Assembly: GCA_001897535.1 (NCBI GenBank)
Contig: MKTC01000007.1
Location: 62,001-126,000 of the forward strand
Length of the DNA stretch: 64,000 bases
Direction of reading: 5' to 3'
Source of the DNA: Bacteroidetes bacterium 37-13
GTDB taxonomy: Bacteria > Bacteroidota > Bacteroidia > Chitinophagales > LD1
Each line of letters opens with the position of its first letter. Positions within the stretch are counted from its first letter, which is position 1. Below the pieces are notes generated by a model. That model was given only the letters and a program-made list of their open reading frames with translations, searched no databases and was not told the origin of the DNA. Of the stretch, positions 24,670-31,658 are shown one piece after another. The position numbers and the translations under genes are program-made.

Positions 24670-24987
24670 TTATGTTTTTTCAAAATAACTTAATATTTCT
24701 GCTATTTTCTTGAGCTGTGAAATTTGTAAGGAATAAAAAATTTCCTTTCCCTTTCGCTTGGTATAAACCACTCCCGCCTCGCGTAAAATACGCAATTGCT
24801 GTGAAGTAATTGATTGGTCTAAGTTGAGCACACTATAAATAGAATACACATTTACCGAATCATTCTCGTTAATAAAATTGAGAATTTTAAATCGGAGTGG
24901 ATGTGCTAATGCTCTTAAAATAGAACTTGCAATTTTTAAATCTTCATCAAAACCAATAGAGTTATTGAATGATGCTGTGTGTACCAT
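24670..24987 (-). CDS. ArsR-type winged-helix regulator (first of two)
   Basis: A 105-residue winged-helix protein. The family core is ASSILRALAHPLRFKILNFI followed by a recognition helix at DQSITSQQLRILREAGVVYTKRKGKEIFYSL. Typical ArsR/SmtB proteins bind DNA until a metal or other signal releases them. This protein has no cysteine, so the classic ELCVCDL arsenic or metal site is absent and its signal is unknown. A TACATTTG promoter box lies about 50 bases upstream. A similar regulator is encoded directly upstream on the same strand. Confidence 0.82.
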   Translation of the reverse strand: MVHTASFNNSIGFDEDLKIASSILRALAHPLRFKILNFINENDSVNVYSIYSVLNLDQSITSQQLRILREAGVVYTKRKGKEIFYSLQISQLKKIAEILSYFEKT

Positions 24988-25081: not shown

Positions 25082-25432
25082 TTAGCTTTTGGCAAGTTCG
25101 GCTGCCAATCCTGCAAGTTCTGCAATTTTAGCTTTGTTTATTTTGTAGTAAACGAATTTTCCATCGCGCTCGGTTACTACTACATTAGCTTTTCTAAGAA
25201 TGGCTAAATGCTGAGATGTTACTGATTGTTCTAAACGCAACTTTACATAAATTTCAGTTACAGTGATACGACCATTTTTCTCAATCAATTCAAGAATTTC
25301 TTTGCGCAGTTTGTGGTTCACGGCACGTAATGTAAGTACCGCTCTGCGTAAGATTTCGTAGCTCAATTTTATTGGTTCTGGTGAATTTGGGTCGGATAGT
25401 ACTAAAACTTCTTTTGCTAATCTAACACTCAT
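25082..25432 (-). CDS. ArsR-type winged-helix regulator (second of two)
   Basis: A 116-residue winged-helix protein of the ArsR class, related to its downstream neighbour. The core reads LRAVNHKLRKEILELIEKNG, with a recognition helix in EQSVTSQHLAILRKANVVVTERDGKFVYYKI. It also lacks cysteine, so a thiol-based metal site is unlikely. It has a well-formed promoter of its own (25454-25483). The two proteins share the SITSQQL/SVTSQHL recognition pattern, which hints that they bind related sites, but this is inference. No efflux or metal gene is beside them. Confidence 0.82.
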   Translation of the reverse strand: MSVRLAKEVLVLSDPNSPEPIKLSYEILRRAVLTLRAVNHKLRKEILELIEKNGRITVTEIYVKLRLEQSVTSQHLAILRKANVVVTERDGKFVYYKINKAKIAELAGLAAELAKS

Positions 25433-25579: not shown

Positions 25580-26479
25580 CTAAATTTTAATCCAATTAGA
25601 ATATCCAAAAATTCCTCTGCCATTTAAGAATGTATTTTCCAAAAATGAGATGAAGCGATATTTTAATTTCTCATGCTTCATTTTTGGGCGGTTAAGTAGG
25701 GTTAATGGATTGTCTAATTCATTTTTCCAATAGAATTTTTGCATAAACTCTTGCATCACTTTTGGGTGCGAATTTTTAAAAATCGGAATTTTGTTCATGT
25801 TTCCAAAATTAAAATTTGCCAAGCGCTTTGCGTGCATGGCAGCTGAGCCTTCAATGCCGTGATACACAGAATCTTGTTCTTTCTTTTTAGATTGCATCAC
25901 TTCTGGTGGGCGCACCCAACCGTAATGATAAATGTGTGCTTCAATAGCTTTTACACGAAGTTTTTCTCCATTGGTTTTTCTAAAAGATTGTGCGTCTTTA
26001 TAGGAAACTATTTCGGCATTATTTCGCACAATTCTTATTTCGTTTCTGTACCAACCATGAAATGGTAAATAGTGATTGTAATCGCCCCAAAAATGGTAGT
26101 AGTTGAAAAGCAATCCATCTATATTTTTTTGTGGTAAGAATTCATTGCAAGCGGCTTGTATTATTGGTAAATCTTTCTCATGAATTACCTCATCGGCTTG
26201 AATGTAGAAGCACCAATCGCCTGTGCATTGCTGCAAAGCAAAAGTAGTTTCTTCGGCAAAAATTTTGCCTTCCACAAACGAAGATTCACTCCAAACCCTA
26301 TCAAAAATTTTCACTTTAGGTGAATTGAGTGATTCTATAATTTTGCGAGTGTTATCGCTGCTATCGCCAAGCGCCACAATAAATTCATCTACAATGGGTA
26401 AAAGCGAAGCAATACTTTCTTTTATAGGAAAGTAGTATTTCTCTGCATTGCGCACCATGGTGAAGCCGCTAATTTTCAT
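25580..26479 (-). CDS. Family 2-like glycosyltransferase
   Basis: A 299-residue GT-A-fold protein. It opens MKISGFTMVRNAEKYYFPIKESI, the usual NAExY start of this glycosyltransferase group. It contains GDSSDNTRKII and the metal-binding QADEVIHE in place of DxD. It would transfer a sugar from a nucleotide donor to an acceptor on the cytoplasmic side. It overlaps the IMPase-type phosphatase gene by four bases (ATGA), so it is the last gene of the heptose-like operon. Transfer of that operon's sugar product is inferred from context only. Confidence 0.85.
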   Translation of the reverse strand: MKISGFTMVRNAEKYYFPIKESIASLLPIVDEFIVALGDSSDNTRKIIESLNSPKVKIFDRVWSESSFVEGKIFAEETTFALQQCTGDWCFYIQADEVIHEKDLPIIQAACNEFLPQKNIDGLLFNYYHFWGDYNHYLPFHGWYRNEIRIVRNNAEIVSYKDAQSFRKTNGEKLRVKAIEAHIYHYGWVRPPEVMQSKKKEQDSVYHGIEGSAAMHAKRLANFNFGNMNKIPIFKNSHPKVMQEFMQKFYWKNELDNPLTLLNRPKMKHEKLKYRFISFLENTFLNGRGIFGYSNWIKI

Positions 26480-27261
26480 GTGTTTAACGATTGAATTTTT
26501 AAGCGTCTGTTTGTAGCGGCAATATCGGTTTTACCTAATAATGCAGTGTGAATATTCACTTCATTTTCGTTGAGCTGAAATAGTTTACCTCCTGCTTCTT
26601 CCAAAATAATTTTGCCTGCATAAAAATCCCACGAAGATTGATTTACGGTTACTAAACCATCAATTCTGCCACAGGCAATTTGGCAAAGTTCTTGTGCACA
26701 AGAGCCGCCACCGCGAATGGAGCGCACTGCTTGTAAATTGGCTGTAGAGCTTGGTTTGTATTCTTCTGCACGTATGTAGCGATGCCCGAAATTGAAGATG
26801 GATTCCGAAAGTTTTTCTGTTTTAGAAACTGTAATTTCTTTTCTGTTTAAAAATGCTCCTAAGCCTAAAAAACCATGAAAAGTTTCGTTGTAAAAAGGAT
26901 TATCTACTACTCCCAAAATAATGGAATTGCCTTTTATTAGCGCTACGGAAACTGAAAACGAAGGAATGCCACGTGCGAAATAACTGCTGCCATCAAGCGG
27001 ATCTACCACCCAAATGTATTCGCTGTTTTCTTTGCTTTCTCCACTTTCTTCGCCTACAATTTTGTGTGATGGAAAAGTGTGTGCAATGGTTTCTTTAATA
27101 TAATTTTCTGAAGCAATGTCTGCTTGTGTAACAATACTGTGAAACGATTCTTTTTCTATCTGCTTGTGCTGTTTGCCAAAACTTTGCATTAAAATTTGTC
27201 CGGCTTTTTGAGCCATTTGAATGGTAAAGTTGGTAAGGTATTCAGCAGAAGTTTTGTTCAT
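26476..27261 (-). CDS. Inositol-monophosphatase-family phosphatase
   Basis: A 261-residue metal-dependent phosphatase of the IMPase superfamily. The metal ligands are visible as Glu71-Glu72 in GEESGE and Asp87/Asp90 in WVVDPLDGSSYF. The second signature is SSWDFYAGKIILEEAGG near the C-terminus. The usual DGT is DGS here. IMPases hydrolyse inositol phosphate, but relatives act on histidinol phosphate, fructose bisphosphate or 3'-phosphoadenosine phosphates. It lies between a sedoheptulose-phosphate isomerase-like gene and a glycosyltransferase gene, with one-base and four-base overlaps. That position suggests it dephosphorylates a heptose bisphosphate, the job of GmhB elsewhere. Confidence 0.85.
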   Translation of the reverse strand: MNKTSAEYLTNFTIQMAQKAGQILMQSFGKQHKQIEKESFHSIVTQADIASENYIKETIAHTFPSHKIVGEESGESKENSEYIWVVDPLDGSSYFARGIPSFSVSVALIKGNSIILGVVDNPFYNETFHGFLGLGAFLNRKEITVSKTEKLSESIFNFGHRYIRAEEYKPSSTANLQAVRSIRGGGSCAQELCQIACGRIDGLVTVNQSSWDFYAGKIILEEAGGKLFQLNENEVNIHTALLGKTDIAATNRRLKIQSLNT

Positions 27262-27875
27262 TAGATTGGTTGGTTTTTGTGAAATATATTTATTCCATCA
27301 GCACAACGCATTTTGGCATCTAAAAGCAAATGAATGAAATGGGCATGAAGTGTTTCAACTAAACCATAAGAAAAAGATGGTACATAGAAATTAAAATCGC
27401 CTAAAGTGCGCAATTTGTTTTCTGGTGCAAAGCCGGAAAAAGTAACCACATAACAACCTTTTTCTTTTGCTGTATTTGCTGCATTTACAATGTTTGGCGA
27501 ATTGCCTGAAGCGCTAATGGCAATAAGCAAATCACCACTTTCGGCAAATACTTCAATCGGTTTGGCAAACACTTCAGGGTACGAATAATCGTTTGCCACC
27601 GCTGTGAGCAAAGATGAGTCGTTGAATGCAATTGCTTTCACCTTTCCATTTTTCCAAAAATCTAAAGCCATGTGCGAAGTAATTCCCGCACTTCCACCAT
27701 TGCCGACAAACATTATTTTCTTATTGTTTTGAGCCAATTGCTTAAATAGGACTACAATTTCTTCAACAGCGTTGCCGAGTTGAATTTTAGTAGAAGTTTT
27801 ATCGCTCGCTTCAGTATTTTCAAGTGCTTGAATAAACTGTGTGTTATATTCTTGCACAAATTCTGTGATTTTCAT
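27261..27875 (-). CDS. GmhA-like SIS-domain sugar isomerase (sedoheptulose 7-phosphate isomerase type)
   Basis: A 204-residue single-SIS-domain protein. The sugar-phosphate binding region KIMFVGNGGSAGITSHMALDFW and the later LLIAISASGNSPNIVNAANTAKEKG match GmhA-type isomerases. GmhA converts sedoheptulose 7-phosphate to D-glycero-manno-heptose 7-phosphate. The frame runs open upstream, but the ATG at 27875 is chosen because the extra 49 residues would lie inside the preceding gene and show no similarity. It starts five bases after the kinase fusion gene and abuts the phosphatase gene. That neighbourhood strongly supports a heptose role over other SIS functions. Confidence 0.83.
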   Translation of the reverse strand: MKITEFVQEYNTQFIQALENTEASDKTSTKIQLGNAVEEIVVLFKQLAQNNKKIMFVGNGGSAGITSHMALDFWKNGKVKAIAFNDSSLLTAVANDYSYPEVFAKPIEVFAESGDLLIAISASGNSPNIVNAANTAKEKGCYVVTFSGFAPENKLRTLGDFNFYVPSFSYGLVETLHAHFIHLLLDAKMRCADGINIFHKNQPI

Positions 27876-27880
27876 TTCTG

Positions 27881-29395
27881 TTATTTTAAAAAGTGCGACA
27901 CAAATTTGAGTAAATCTTTTTTGTAAACCGGATGTTCGTTTCCTAAAATATTTACAGCCAAAGTTCCCATACAATTTCCAATAAATCCGGCAGCTTCGGC
28001 AGGTATTCCCGCAAAGGCACAAAGCGAAGTAATTGAAAGCACAGCATCGCCTGCACCAACTGAATCTTTCACCGATGTGGCAAAAGCCGGTGTGTAGTGA
28101 AAATGATTATCGAAATAAATTACTGAACCTGCTGCACCAAGCGTAATTTGAATTTCTTGGCAATGTATAATTTCTTTCAGCTTTTTAATAAGCGTTTCCA
28201 CACTTTCGTAGGCTTCACCAAATGGCAACCTAAGTTCTTTTTCATCAATAGAAATATAGTTGGCTCGCTTGTATTTAGTGATATAATTAAATCCAAAATT
28301 GTTTGAGTTTGTTTGTGCATTAATGGCTAAAAATTTGCCACTTTCTTCTAAGAACTTAATAATATTTGGGGTGATGAATCCATGTCCAAAATCGGCAATT
28401 AAAACAAAATCGTAAGCAGTAATTTCGCTCTTTAAATATTCAATTACTTCTTGCTCCAATTTTTTATCTATGAACTTGTCGTTCATAAAAGTTACTTCAA
28501 ATAGTTTTAGGTTTAAGTAAGTATCTAAATAGCGTCTTTTAGTTGGTGTAGGGCCATCGTTTCGCAAAAAATACTTGCGTTCTATTTCAGCCGAAAGTTT
28601 ACTATCAATAAAATCTTTTTGGGTGTTTTGTTCGCCCAAAAGCGTTACCAATTTTACATTTTTTGCATATTGCTGAATATGGTTTGCTATTGCCAAAGAA
28701 CCGCCTGCATACGAAACGCCATTTCTGTAAATAGTAGAAATAGTGGGCGATTTAGATGATTTTCCAAGTGGAGTACAAGTGTGGTATTCATCAATAATGG
28801 TATCGCCAATTACCAATACTTTTTGGTTGTTAAGCGAATTGATAAAGCCGGTTATTTTTTCAACATCGTACTTTGTTTTTAATGTTTCCAAATATTTCTG
28901 TACACTATCATCTAACTGCGAAAAATGGGAATTTATTAACTTTGAAGATGACATAGTTTCATCGTCAGTAATAAACATTTTTCCGCCATTATCAATTACG
29001 GCTTGCTCTTCTAAACCAATGTTGCTGGTAACATCATTGTCGCGATTTTTGTAATCGGGACCTTTTACATAAAAACTTGGTTTTAAAAGATTGATAGTTT
29101 CTATTGCTGTTGGCCATTTGTTTATGGCAACATAGGCTACACATTCAAGAGCAGCAATAGTTTCTGCGCGAATTTGTTCATTAAAAACCGGTCTGCCGGG
29201 TCCTTTATTTACAAATTTATCTTGTGTAACGGTTACAATTAAAACATCTCCAACTTTTGATGCAGATTGGAAATGCTTAATGTGTCCCGGATGCATTAAA
29301 TCGAAGCAGCCGTGGCAATGAGCAATCGTTTTGCCTTCCTTTTTTAATTGAGCTGATATTGATGCCAACTCTTCTAATGAAACTAATTTCCCCAA
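27881..29395 (-). CDS. Nucleotidyltransferase-PfkB kinase fusion (HldE activities in reversed order)
   Basis: The 504-residue protein has a cytidylyltransferase-type domain first: HGCFDLMHPGHIKHF with HPGH at 35-38, GRPVFNEQIRAETIAAL, and FYVKGPDYKN. From about residue 190 a PfkB-family kinase follows: VIGDTIIDEYHTC, SYAGGSLAIANHI and the catalytic DSVGAGDAVLS with Asp450. E. coli HldE has the same two activities, heptose 7-phosphate kinase and heptose 1-phosphate adenylyltransferase, with the kinase first. The reversed order argues for an independent fusion. It heads the four-gene operon, and a -7 box lies 25 bases upstream. The nucleotide used (ATP or CTP) cannot be read from the sequence. 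Confidence 0.85.
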   Translation of the reverse strand: MGKLVSLEELASISAQLKKEGKTIAHCHGCFDLMHPGHIKHFQSASKVGDVLIVTVTQDKFVNKGPGRPVFNEQIRAETIAALECVAYVAINKWPTAIETINLLKPSFYVKGPDYKNRDNDVTSNIGLEEQAVIDNGGKMFITDDETMSSSKLINSHFSQLDDSVQKYLETLKTKYDVEKITGFINSLNNQKVLVIGDTIIDEYHTCTPLGKSSKSPTISTIYRNGVSYAGGSLAIANHIQQYAKNVKLVTLLGEQNTQKDFIDSKLSAEIERKYFLRNDGPTPTKRRYLDTYLNLKLFEVTFMNDKFIDKKLEQEVIEYLKSEITAYDFVLIADFGHGFITPNIIKFLEESGKFLAINAQTNSNNFGFNYITKYKRANYISIDEKELRLPFGEAYESVETLIKKLKEIIHCQEIQITLGAAGSVIYFDNHFHYTPAFATSVKDSVGAGDAVLSITSLCAFAGIPAEAAGFIGNCMGTLAVNILGNEHPVYKKDLLKFVSHFLK

Positions 29396-29532: not shown

Positions 29533-30435
29533 ATGAACAGAATACAGCTTGTAAGGTTGTTTCAAACAATTTCAAACACAAATATTTTTGGTACGGCAAA
29601 GAGCATGCGCTATCTCTCATATCTTTTGCTTAAAAAGCCAACAGGGAAAATAGTAGCAGAAACTATAAACGGGTTTTCGGTTTGGGTAGATCCTGCTTTT
29701 GATAAATCGGGCTTGGAGCACGATATTTATTTTTTAGGCACTTACGAAAAAGGCACTGTGAGTGTGATGGAGAATTTTTTGCAACCAACAGATAATTTTA
29801 TTGATGTGGGCGCAAATATTGGCTTTGTTTCGCTTGCTGCTGCTAAGTTTTGCTCGCAAGGAAAAGTGTTTTCTTTTGAAGCCAACCCGGATACATTTAA
29901 AATTTTGGAAGAAAATATTCGGTTGAATAATTTTAAAAATATCCAGCCATATTCTATGGGTTTGGGTTCAGAAAAAAGTGTATTGAAAATATTTCCAAAC
30001 ACTTTAAAGAACAATCGCGGTGGTGCTTCAATGGTGCAAAGTGACTTGAATAAAGACGAAGTGGGAGTGGAGGTTGCTATTGATAAGCTCGACAATGTTT
30101 TAGATGGTAATACAACCATTTCTATGATGAAAATTGATGTAGAAGGTTTTGAAATGGAAGTGCTGAAAGGCGCAACAGCATTACTTTCGAGTAAAAATGC
30201 TCCGGCTTTAATTGTTGAATGTAGCGAAAGTAGAAATAACTTAAATTTTACTCCGGTTGAATTGTATAGATATTTGCTTGGTGTAAATAACTACAAAATT
30301 TTCAAGTTAGAATTGGGGAAAGAAAGGTTGTCGAAGTTGGTGGAAGTGAAAGGAGAATCGGACATTCCTTTTCACGATAATTTATTTTGCTTTTTGCCGC
30401 AACAAGTAAATCGTTTAAAGAAAATTCTAAAGTAG
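29533..30435 (+). CDS. FkbM-family methyltransferase
   Basis: A 300-residue SAM-dependent methyltransferase of the FkbM family. Motif I is FIDVGANIGFVSLAAAKF, followed by VFSFEANPDTFKILEENI and the family-typical MMKIDVEGFEMEVLKGA. FkbM enzymes O-methylate sugars or polyketides and are common in glycan clusters. It is the first gene of the plus-strand arm, divergent from the heptose-like operon across 137 bases, and overlaps the next gene by one base. Methylation of a surface glycan is the likely role, inferred from position. Confidence 0.85.
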   Translation: MNRIQLVRLFQTISNTNIFGTAKSMRYLSYLLLKKPTGKIVAETINGFSVWVDPAFDKSGLEHDIYFLGTYEKGTVSVMENFLQPTDNFIDVGANIGFVSLAAAKFCSQGKVFSFEANPDTFKILEENIRLNNFKNIQPYSMGLGSEKSVLKIFPNTLKNNRGGASMVQSDLNKDEVGVEVAIDKLDNVLDGNTTISMMKIDVEGFEMEVLKGATALLSSKNAPALIVECSESRNNLNFTPVELYRYLLGVNNYKIFKLELGKERLSKLVEVKGESDIPFHDNLFCFLPQQVNRLKKILK

Positions 30436-31658
30436 TGGAATTGCTTTTTATTAAGATTAAGAACGAACTTTTTAATCGAATTACTTCGGTAATAGATTTT
30501 TTATTTTTCTATTTAAAACTGCATAGTGTAAAGCCATATTCTTTTCCTGGTAACCAATTAGGAATTATTTATTTAGGCGAAAATTTGCCTCCGCGTATTG
30601 CAAGAATGTATAAGTGGTTGAAAAGAAAATATGCGATAAACGGAGTTCTTGTTTGTGCGCAAAACGGCTACAATAGCAAGTTTGTAGAAATGGAATTTGA
30701 TAGTGTTTACTTGTTTAGAAATAAGTGGCATTTATATGGCATACTGCAAAAAATAAATGGAGCAAATCTTATCCATGCTTTTGGTCCCAAGTCGTATTAT
30801 CCCGATATGGCACGGCAATTTATGCCGCTCACAAAATTTGTGTACGATATGCAAGATGTGTTGGGGATTTACTTTGGTTTAAACACTGATATTCGTTGGT
30901 TTCAAAAGGAATTTCCTCATGAAAAAAATTGCCTACAATTTGCCGATGGATTGGTATCGCATGGGTTAGAGCCAATTCCTGCTTACCGAGTTTATGGAAT
31001 AAAGGAAAAGCGCAACCGTTTGTTTTTTCCATTGTTTTGCGATGATGATAGATTTTGTGATAATGTACATAAGCTATCCGATGGTTTTCATGTGGTGTAT
31101 GCCGGTGAAATTCAAAATAGCAACAGAGATAAAAAGCAGTTTGGCAATATTCAGTTTGATGATTTAATTGATGAACTTTCGCACCAAAAAATTCATTTTC
31201 ATGTTTATCCTTCACCTTCTACTAATCCATTGCTCTACAATCAATATTTAGAAGTTGCCAATACCAATCCATATTTTCACTTAGAAAAATCTGTAGCACA
31301 AAGTGAACTTTCTAAAGAATTATCAAAATATCATTACGGCATTATTCCTTTTTTTAAAAGCACTTCGGGGCAATCAAACGATAAATACAAGTATTCTACA
31401 GCACTAAAATTATTCAACTTTATCGAAGCTGGAATACCAACAATTTGTTCTGAAGATATTGAATTTCAAGCATGGATTTTGAAGAGAAATTACGCAGGAT
31501 TTTCAATTTCTCAAGAAGATGTAAAAACTTTAGGCGCAAAATTAAACAGCATAGATTATACCGCAATTCAACGCAATTTAATTAGAAATAGACCTAGACT
31601 TTCTTTAGCAAACAATATACATTCACTCTATAAATTTTACAATAGAATATTACAATGA
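30435..31658 (+). CDS. GT-B-like glycosyltransferase
   Basis: The 407-residue protein has the layout of a GT-B glycosyltransferase: an N-terminal acceptor half (LGIIYLGENLPPRIARMYKWLKRKY) and a C-terminal donor half. The C-terminal half contains FHVVYAGEIQNSN, a YHYGIIPF stretch and KLFNFIEAGIPTICSED, which resembles the EAxxxGxP donor-site region. I place the start at the GTG at 30435, which overlaps the stop of the methyltransferase gene (TAGTG). The longer frame would run 48 bases into that gene. It overlaps the epimerase gene by four bases, so all three are co-translated. Confidence 0.72.
   Translation: MELLFIKIKNELFNRITSVIDFLFFYLKLHSVKPYSFPGNQLGIIYLGENLPPRIARMYKWLKRKYAINGVLVCAQNGYNSKFVEMEFDSVYLFRNKWHLYGILQKINGANLIHAFGPKSYYPDMARQFMPLTKFVYDMQDVLGIYFGLNTDIRWFQKEFPHEKNCLQFADGLVSHGLEPIPAYRVYGIKEKRNRLFFPLFCDDDRFCDNVHKLSDGFHVVYAGEIQNSNRDKKQFGNIQFDDLIDELSHQKIHFHVYPSPSTNPLLYNQYLEVANTNPYFHLEKSVAQSELSKELSKYHYGIIPFFKSTSGQSNDKYKYSTALKLFNFIEAGIPTICSEDIEFQAWILKRNYAGFSISQEDVKTLGAKLNSIDYTAIQRNLIRNRPRLSLANNIHSLYKFYNRILQ

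Follow-up and report, generated by a model that had tools for sequence, protein, structure and literature searches.

The window, a stretch of 64,000 nucleotides from the genome of Bacteroidetes bacterium 37-13, carries a minus-strand operon and divergently transcribed neighbours, which comprise the following genes:

25580 to 26479, minus strand: GT2-like glycosyltransferase that closes the operon (PF13704/PF00535)
26476 to 27261, minus strand: IMPase-family phosphatase of 261 aa (PF00459 Inositol_P, 191 bits, cut-off 27)
27261 to 27875, minus strand: GmhA-like SIS isomerase of 204 aa (TIGR00441, 102 bits, cut-off 209)
27881 to 29395, minus strand: reversed HldE-like fusion with a TTG start, a nucleotidyltransferase (about residues 1-160) followed by a PfkB kinase
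29533 to 30435, plus strand: FkbM-family methyltransferase, the divergent neighbour (TIGR01444, 109 bits)
30387 to 31658, plus strand: glycosyltransferase-like protein without a Pfam match, with relatives at loci L034, L035, L037, L048 and L140
31655 to 32647, plus strand: SDR epimerase/dehydratase-like protein (PF01370/PF16363)

Transcription of the operon proceeds from the nucleotidyltransferase-kinase fusion through the SIS isomerase and the IMPase-family gene to the GT2-like gene. At its start, the IMPase gene overlaps the SIS gene by the single base common to its own ATG and the SIS TAA; at its end, the four bases ATGA contain both its TGA and the ATG of the GT2-like gene. Its frame is open over 262 codons, more than the maximum of 225 reached when the 10 kb around it were shuffled 200 times, and the gene is conserved together with its order in two other genomes (71% and 57% protein identity, the latter in genome G007); it is therefore not a chance reading frame. 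The protein matches PF00459 over the whole domain and presents the E-E, D-P-L-D-G-S/T and W-D motifs of the superfamily. All metal ligands (E71/E72, D87, D90 and D212) are kept, and Ser92 replaces the usual Thr in the motif DPLDGSS. The IMPase fold is clear from the sequence, and the initial annotation of a real gene with intact metal ligands and overlaps of 1 and 4 bases is confirmed. Just downstream of the operon lie two small related tandem ORFs (24670-24987 and 25082-25432, minus strand) that, judged by eye, resemble winged-helix (ArsR-like) regulators.

The genes around this core are conserved to different degrees. The GT2-like gene stands outside it: a 78% identical copy is present in G002, the gene is absent in G007, and no match was detected in module loci other than G002 (the module being the fusion with its SIS isomerase). 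An FkbM-family methyltransferase adjoins the module in G002 too, although its link to the module is weak. Where the module occurs in Bacteroidota and Chloroflexi, the glycosyltransferase-like gene at 30387-31658 is kept. Close relatives of the SDR gene adjoin the fusion or the SIS gene in L035, L048, L144, L095 and L109, and the probable substrate of the SDR protein is the nucleotide sugar.

The operon had been assigned to a heptose-like pathway. Like the HldE/GmhA pathway to ADP-heptose, it combines an isomerase, a PfkB kinase and a nucleotidyltransferase; in contrast to that pathway, its fusion is reversed, its isomerase lacks E65 and Q172, its scores stay below the cut-offs and an IMPase is found in place of GmhB. 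The fusion matches TIGR02199 (103 bits, cut-off 181) and then TIGR02198 (119 bits, cut-off 345), with 149 bits for NF008454 (cut-off 521), so that all three scores and the domain order place it outside HldE proper; its HPGH and GAGD motifs are intact. The SIS isomerase falls short of TIGR00441 by about half of the required score, and of the four residues H61, E65, Q172 and H180 that mark GmhA, alignment with the E. coli enzyme shows the two histidines kept, E65 changed to Asp and Q172 to Glu. Among the aligned SIS proteins of the module, the first of these positions is Asp except in L037 (Gly), and the second is Glu in all. In GmhA, the glutamate and the glutamine are both proposed to be catalytic, near the zinc (PMC7705670), and for this reason the window protein is plausibly a metal-site isomerase of a subfamily different from GmhA. 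The pathway type thus holds in outline, whereas heptose as its sugar is a matter of inference.

The distribution of the IMPase follows that of the module. The high-identity fusion was sought in 119 relatives and in 396 genomes of the order and occurs in G000 (the genome of the window), G002 and G007 only; in all three the IMPase gene lies directly behind the SIS gene. The nucleotidyltransferase-kinase, SIS and IMPase genes are kept in these genomes despite differing flanking genes, and in G007 the SIS and IMPase genes stay together without the GT2-like gene, having diverged from those of the window to a similar degree (56% and 57% identity). Co-inheritance is also seen within two genera, whose genomes have both the module and this IMPase clade (G000 and G002; G007) or neither (G001; G004). 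A sample of 395 genomes from the phylum added two distant fusions (29-35% identity) without an adjacent IMPase and no other IMPase with more than 41% identity; neither this sample nor the 396 genomes of the order contained further module genomes with the IMPase. In other phyla, no IMPase adjoins the module in the other loci fetched (up to 8 kb on each side), and in module genomes without a linked IMPase, the IMPases are ordinary (26-39% identity). In the tree, the three IMPases group into a long-stemmed clade (100/100 support) that is distinct from CysQ and SuhB. The co-occurrence of the clade with GmhA-like genes, suggested as a check by the initial annotation, is therefore observed, with the clade restricted to three module genomes of one family and always behind the SIS gene. 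As these include two congeneric genomes, the pattern reflects few independent events.

The same comparisons bear on whether the protein could be a common housekeeping IMPase, a HisN or a CysQ whose gene came into the operon by chance. Its best NCBIfam match is indeed HisN (TIGR02067, 175.5 bits, cut-off 275), and it is the only IMPase of SuhB/HisN type found in the genome. Nevertheless, it scores below every cut-off. HisN was rejected at 100 bits under the threshold and by the published HolPase motifs 1, 3, 5 and 6, in which D38 is replaced by F, P41 by I and both K91 and D191 by S, with Gly at 219; in addition, a HAD of histidinol-phosphatase type adjoins hisC in the genome. CysQ was rejected at 105 bits against a cut-off of 229, with Gly rather than Leu-Ser before the Glu pair, and a separate cysQ-like gene is present at C10; class-1 FBPase is likewise a separate gene. 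SuhB, with 30% identity for the E. coli protein, was rejected because IRGGGSCAQEL is found in place of the RR-GSAAL and the Asp-Leu of motif 5 that mark SuhB, and because the protein lies outside the SuhB clade. SuhB-type IMPases are missing altogether from many relatives, which makes it improbable that a housekeeping gene was trapped in the operon, and the long-stemmed clade points the same way. The second-best match is the archaeal bifunctional FBPase/IMPase (NF009321, 145 bits, cut-off 264), an enzyme of the IMPase fold that acts on a sugar bisphosphate. It removes the 1-phosphate of fructose 1,6-bisphosphate.

A scan for the fusion over 84,980 species genomes retrieved 80 loci, mostly from Nitrospirota, Elusimicrobia, Omnitrophota and others, and in most of them a SIS gene follows the fusion. 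In Thiohalocapsa (L079:7926-10274 and L090:7920-10262), nucleotidyltransferase, kinase and SIS domains are joined in one protein of ~780 aa, which indicates that these steps belong together. In a Chloroflexi MAG (L037:9515-10585), the gene directly behind the fusion encodes a SIS domain fused to a GmhB HAD domain that passes the curated cut-offs (188 versus 178 bits; 153.5 versus 149.6), and this fusion occupies the slot in which the window has SIS and then IMPase. A GmhB-type HAD lies within 5 kb in 7 of 72 module loci, and in L037, L087 and L098 the module is paired with a GmhB above the heptose-family cut-offs. Frequent neighbours are genes of the GSU2086 family (52), split transketolase (39 and 26), radical SAM (37) and SDR epimerase (24).

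Several observations concern the other versions of the module. In many phyla (L051, L053, L054, L057 and most other scan loci), a separate intact nucleotidyltransferase gene precedes the fusion, whose own N-terminal nucleotidyltransferase-like domain seems to have decayed (L070 has HPGV for HPGH); one of the two copies may have taken on a structural or regulatory role. The GSU2086-family protein of unknown function (NF052581, 370 bits) adjoins the module at L097:7008-7976 and 51 other loci and recurs with the split transketolase and a radical SAM/SPASM protein, a set that possibly represents an undescribed sugar pathway. In the same phylum as the window, L144:515-4010 shows a variant made up of SDR, nucleotidyltransferase-kinase fusion and an oxidoreductase that by eye is Gfo/Idh-like; the sequence fetched there contains no visible SIS gene.

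These data also bear on the identity of the sugar. The substrate may not be heptose, given that isomerase and fusion miss their cut-offs, both by a wide distance, and that two positions proposed to be catalytic in GmhA (PMC7705670) are changed. The module could thus make a non-heptose activated sugar, with the IMPase as the matching phosphatase, GmhB-like in its action; the radical SAM, split transketolase and GSU2086-family genes that adjoin the relatives in other phyla would suit such a product. However, the pairing with bona fide GmhB in L037, L087 and L098 argues for heptose, the linked transketolase fits a precursor of sedoheptulose type, H61 and H180 are retained, and the E65 and Q172 changes are conservative. 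We regard a non-heptose product as possible though doubtful; it overlaps with the reading favoured below as a sub-case of it.

The initial annotation further stated that no GmhB is present. This is correct for the cluster in the window but not for the genome, in which a search of the remaining sequence revealed the following gene:

C6:42678-43133 of G000 (L138:6622-7167): GmhB-like HAD of 181 aa (TIGR00213, 86 bits; NF006506, 123 bits, cut-off 178)

A gmhB gene elsewhere in the genome was one half of what had been named as speaking against the replacement. The HAD scores under the GmhB cut-offs, yet it stands in a row with a canonical GmhA and an HddC-like nucleotidyltransferase, and an HddA-like gene is located separately at C39, where HddA is the best match by far. 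Scores against cut-offs are 205/209 bits for GmhA, 261/300 for the HddC-like protein, 123/178 for the HAD and 452/600 for the HddA-like protein; each is the best match and each lies below its strict cut-off, so the gene set, not the thresholds, identifies the route. With GmhA, HddA, GmhB-like HAD and HddC present, the genome has the parts of a GDP-alpha-heptose pathway. Compared with the module in the window, this HddA/HddC route is of the GHMP kinase and sugar-1-phosphate guanylyltransferase type and has its own GmhA and GmhB at separate loci, C6 and C39. At L138:8509-9480, a gene of the deoxyhypusine synthase family (PF01916, 143 bits) adjoins the canonical gmhA, and the HAD at L138:6622-7167 seems to be without the Cys/His zinc-binding loop of the L087 GmhB.

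The GmhB-like HAD is present in G000, G002 and G007, and relatives that lack the module of the window likewise have gmhA and such a HAD near each other. The HAD at C6 most likely serves the GDP-alpha-heptose route, so that GmhB would be replaced within the module only while the organism retains it. A kinase of the PfkB/HldE type is expected to yield the beta anomer, as established for HldE. GmhB enzymes differ in anomer preference, with that of Bacteroides thetaiotaomicron favouring alpha and the LPS type beta, while the H. pylori enzyme discriminates only about threefold (PMC8204981). For a module of HldE (beta) type, this selectivity would make a separate phosphatase sensible.

The alternative that speaks against replacement is that the HAD at C6 could act in both pathways, with the IMPase having another role such as clearing side products or handling a phosphorylated glycan precursor of the glycosyltransferase. 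The occurrence of the HAD in all three module genomes and the weak anomer selectivity of the H. pylori enzyme (PMC8204981) are consistent with this. Moreover, a linked GmhB-type HAD is missing within 5 kb in 65 of 72 module loci and the linked IMPase is confined to the family of the window, so the module does not need a linked phosphatase. A search of 40 module genomes revealed a GmhB-like HAD in 31; L035, a close relative without the IMPase, has an unlinked one, and a transaldolase-like gene lies ~0.4 kb from this HAD. None was detected in the other nine, among them the close Bacteroidota relative L048, but absence carries little weight here because these are mostly MAGs. Against a shared HAD, the IMPase of G007 stays behind the SIS gene although the GT2-like gene is gone, the HAD is common to relatives without the module and was hence not recruited for it, and L037 demonstrates that the phosphatase of this slot can be a GmhB. 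A HAD serving both pathways thus appears rather unlikely.

In our preferred reading, which we hold with modest confidence as the probable one, the module has the IMPase as its own dedicated sugar-1,n-bisphosphate phosphatase in place of GmhB. The claim of replacement in the initial annotation accordingly keeps its module-level part, backed by a clade that occurs only with the module behind its isomerase and by the GmhB domain in the corresponding slot of L037, whereas the HAD beside gmhA and hddC, with hddA elsewhere, removes its genome-wide part. The SIS isomerase would convert sedoheptulose 7-phosphate, or a closely similar ketose phosphate, to the aldose phosphate, and the PfkB half of the fusion would phosphorylate C1, presumably as the beta anomer, which would yield a 1,7-(1,n-)bisphosphate. 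From this the metal-dependent IMPase, rather than the HAD at C6, would presumably remove the distal phosphate, after which the nucleotidyltransferase half would activate the 1-phosphate. The resulting nucleotide sugar may be epimerised by the SDR enzyme and transferred to a glycan by the glycosyltransferases. In other lineages, the HAD GmhB would perform the distal-phosphate step, and the GmhB-like HAD of this genome would act in the separate GDP-alpha-heptose pathway.

GmhB, the HAD-type D-glycero-D-manno-heptose 1,7-bisphosphate 7-phosphatase, and the IMPase would share the proposed reaction and the place between the kinase and nucleotidyltransferase steps, but they belong to unrelated fold families and the IMPase substrate is a prediction. 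HisN offers a precedent, being a member of the IMPase superfamily that elsewhere performs a step of the HAD group of GmhB and HisB-N: the histidinol-phosphate phosphatase reaction of HisB-N is catalysed in other bacteria by the IMPase-type HisN (PMC5516325). The window protein differs from it in lacking the HisN motifs, and its genome has a HAD histidinol phosphatase.

In the open-access literature, no relevant paper was found that treats IMPases together with heptose or GmhB. The organism is probably a case of local GmhB replacement by an enzyme of the IMPase fold and not of a GmhB-less genome. If so, it would constitute a second case of HAD/IMPase interchange, after HisB-N and HisN, and would warn against taking the lack of a linked GmhB for an incomplete pathway. 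GmhB mutants of E. coli, K. pneumoniae and H. pylori are leaky, with a back-up phosphatase that awaits identification (PMC8204981, PMC9302095), and the finding bears on this enzyme too: an IMPase tied to the GmhB step would mean that this fold can carry out the reaction, and IMPase-family proteins would become candidates for the back-up enzyme.
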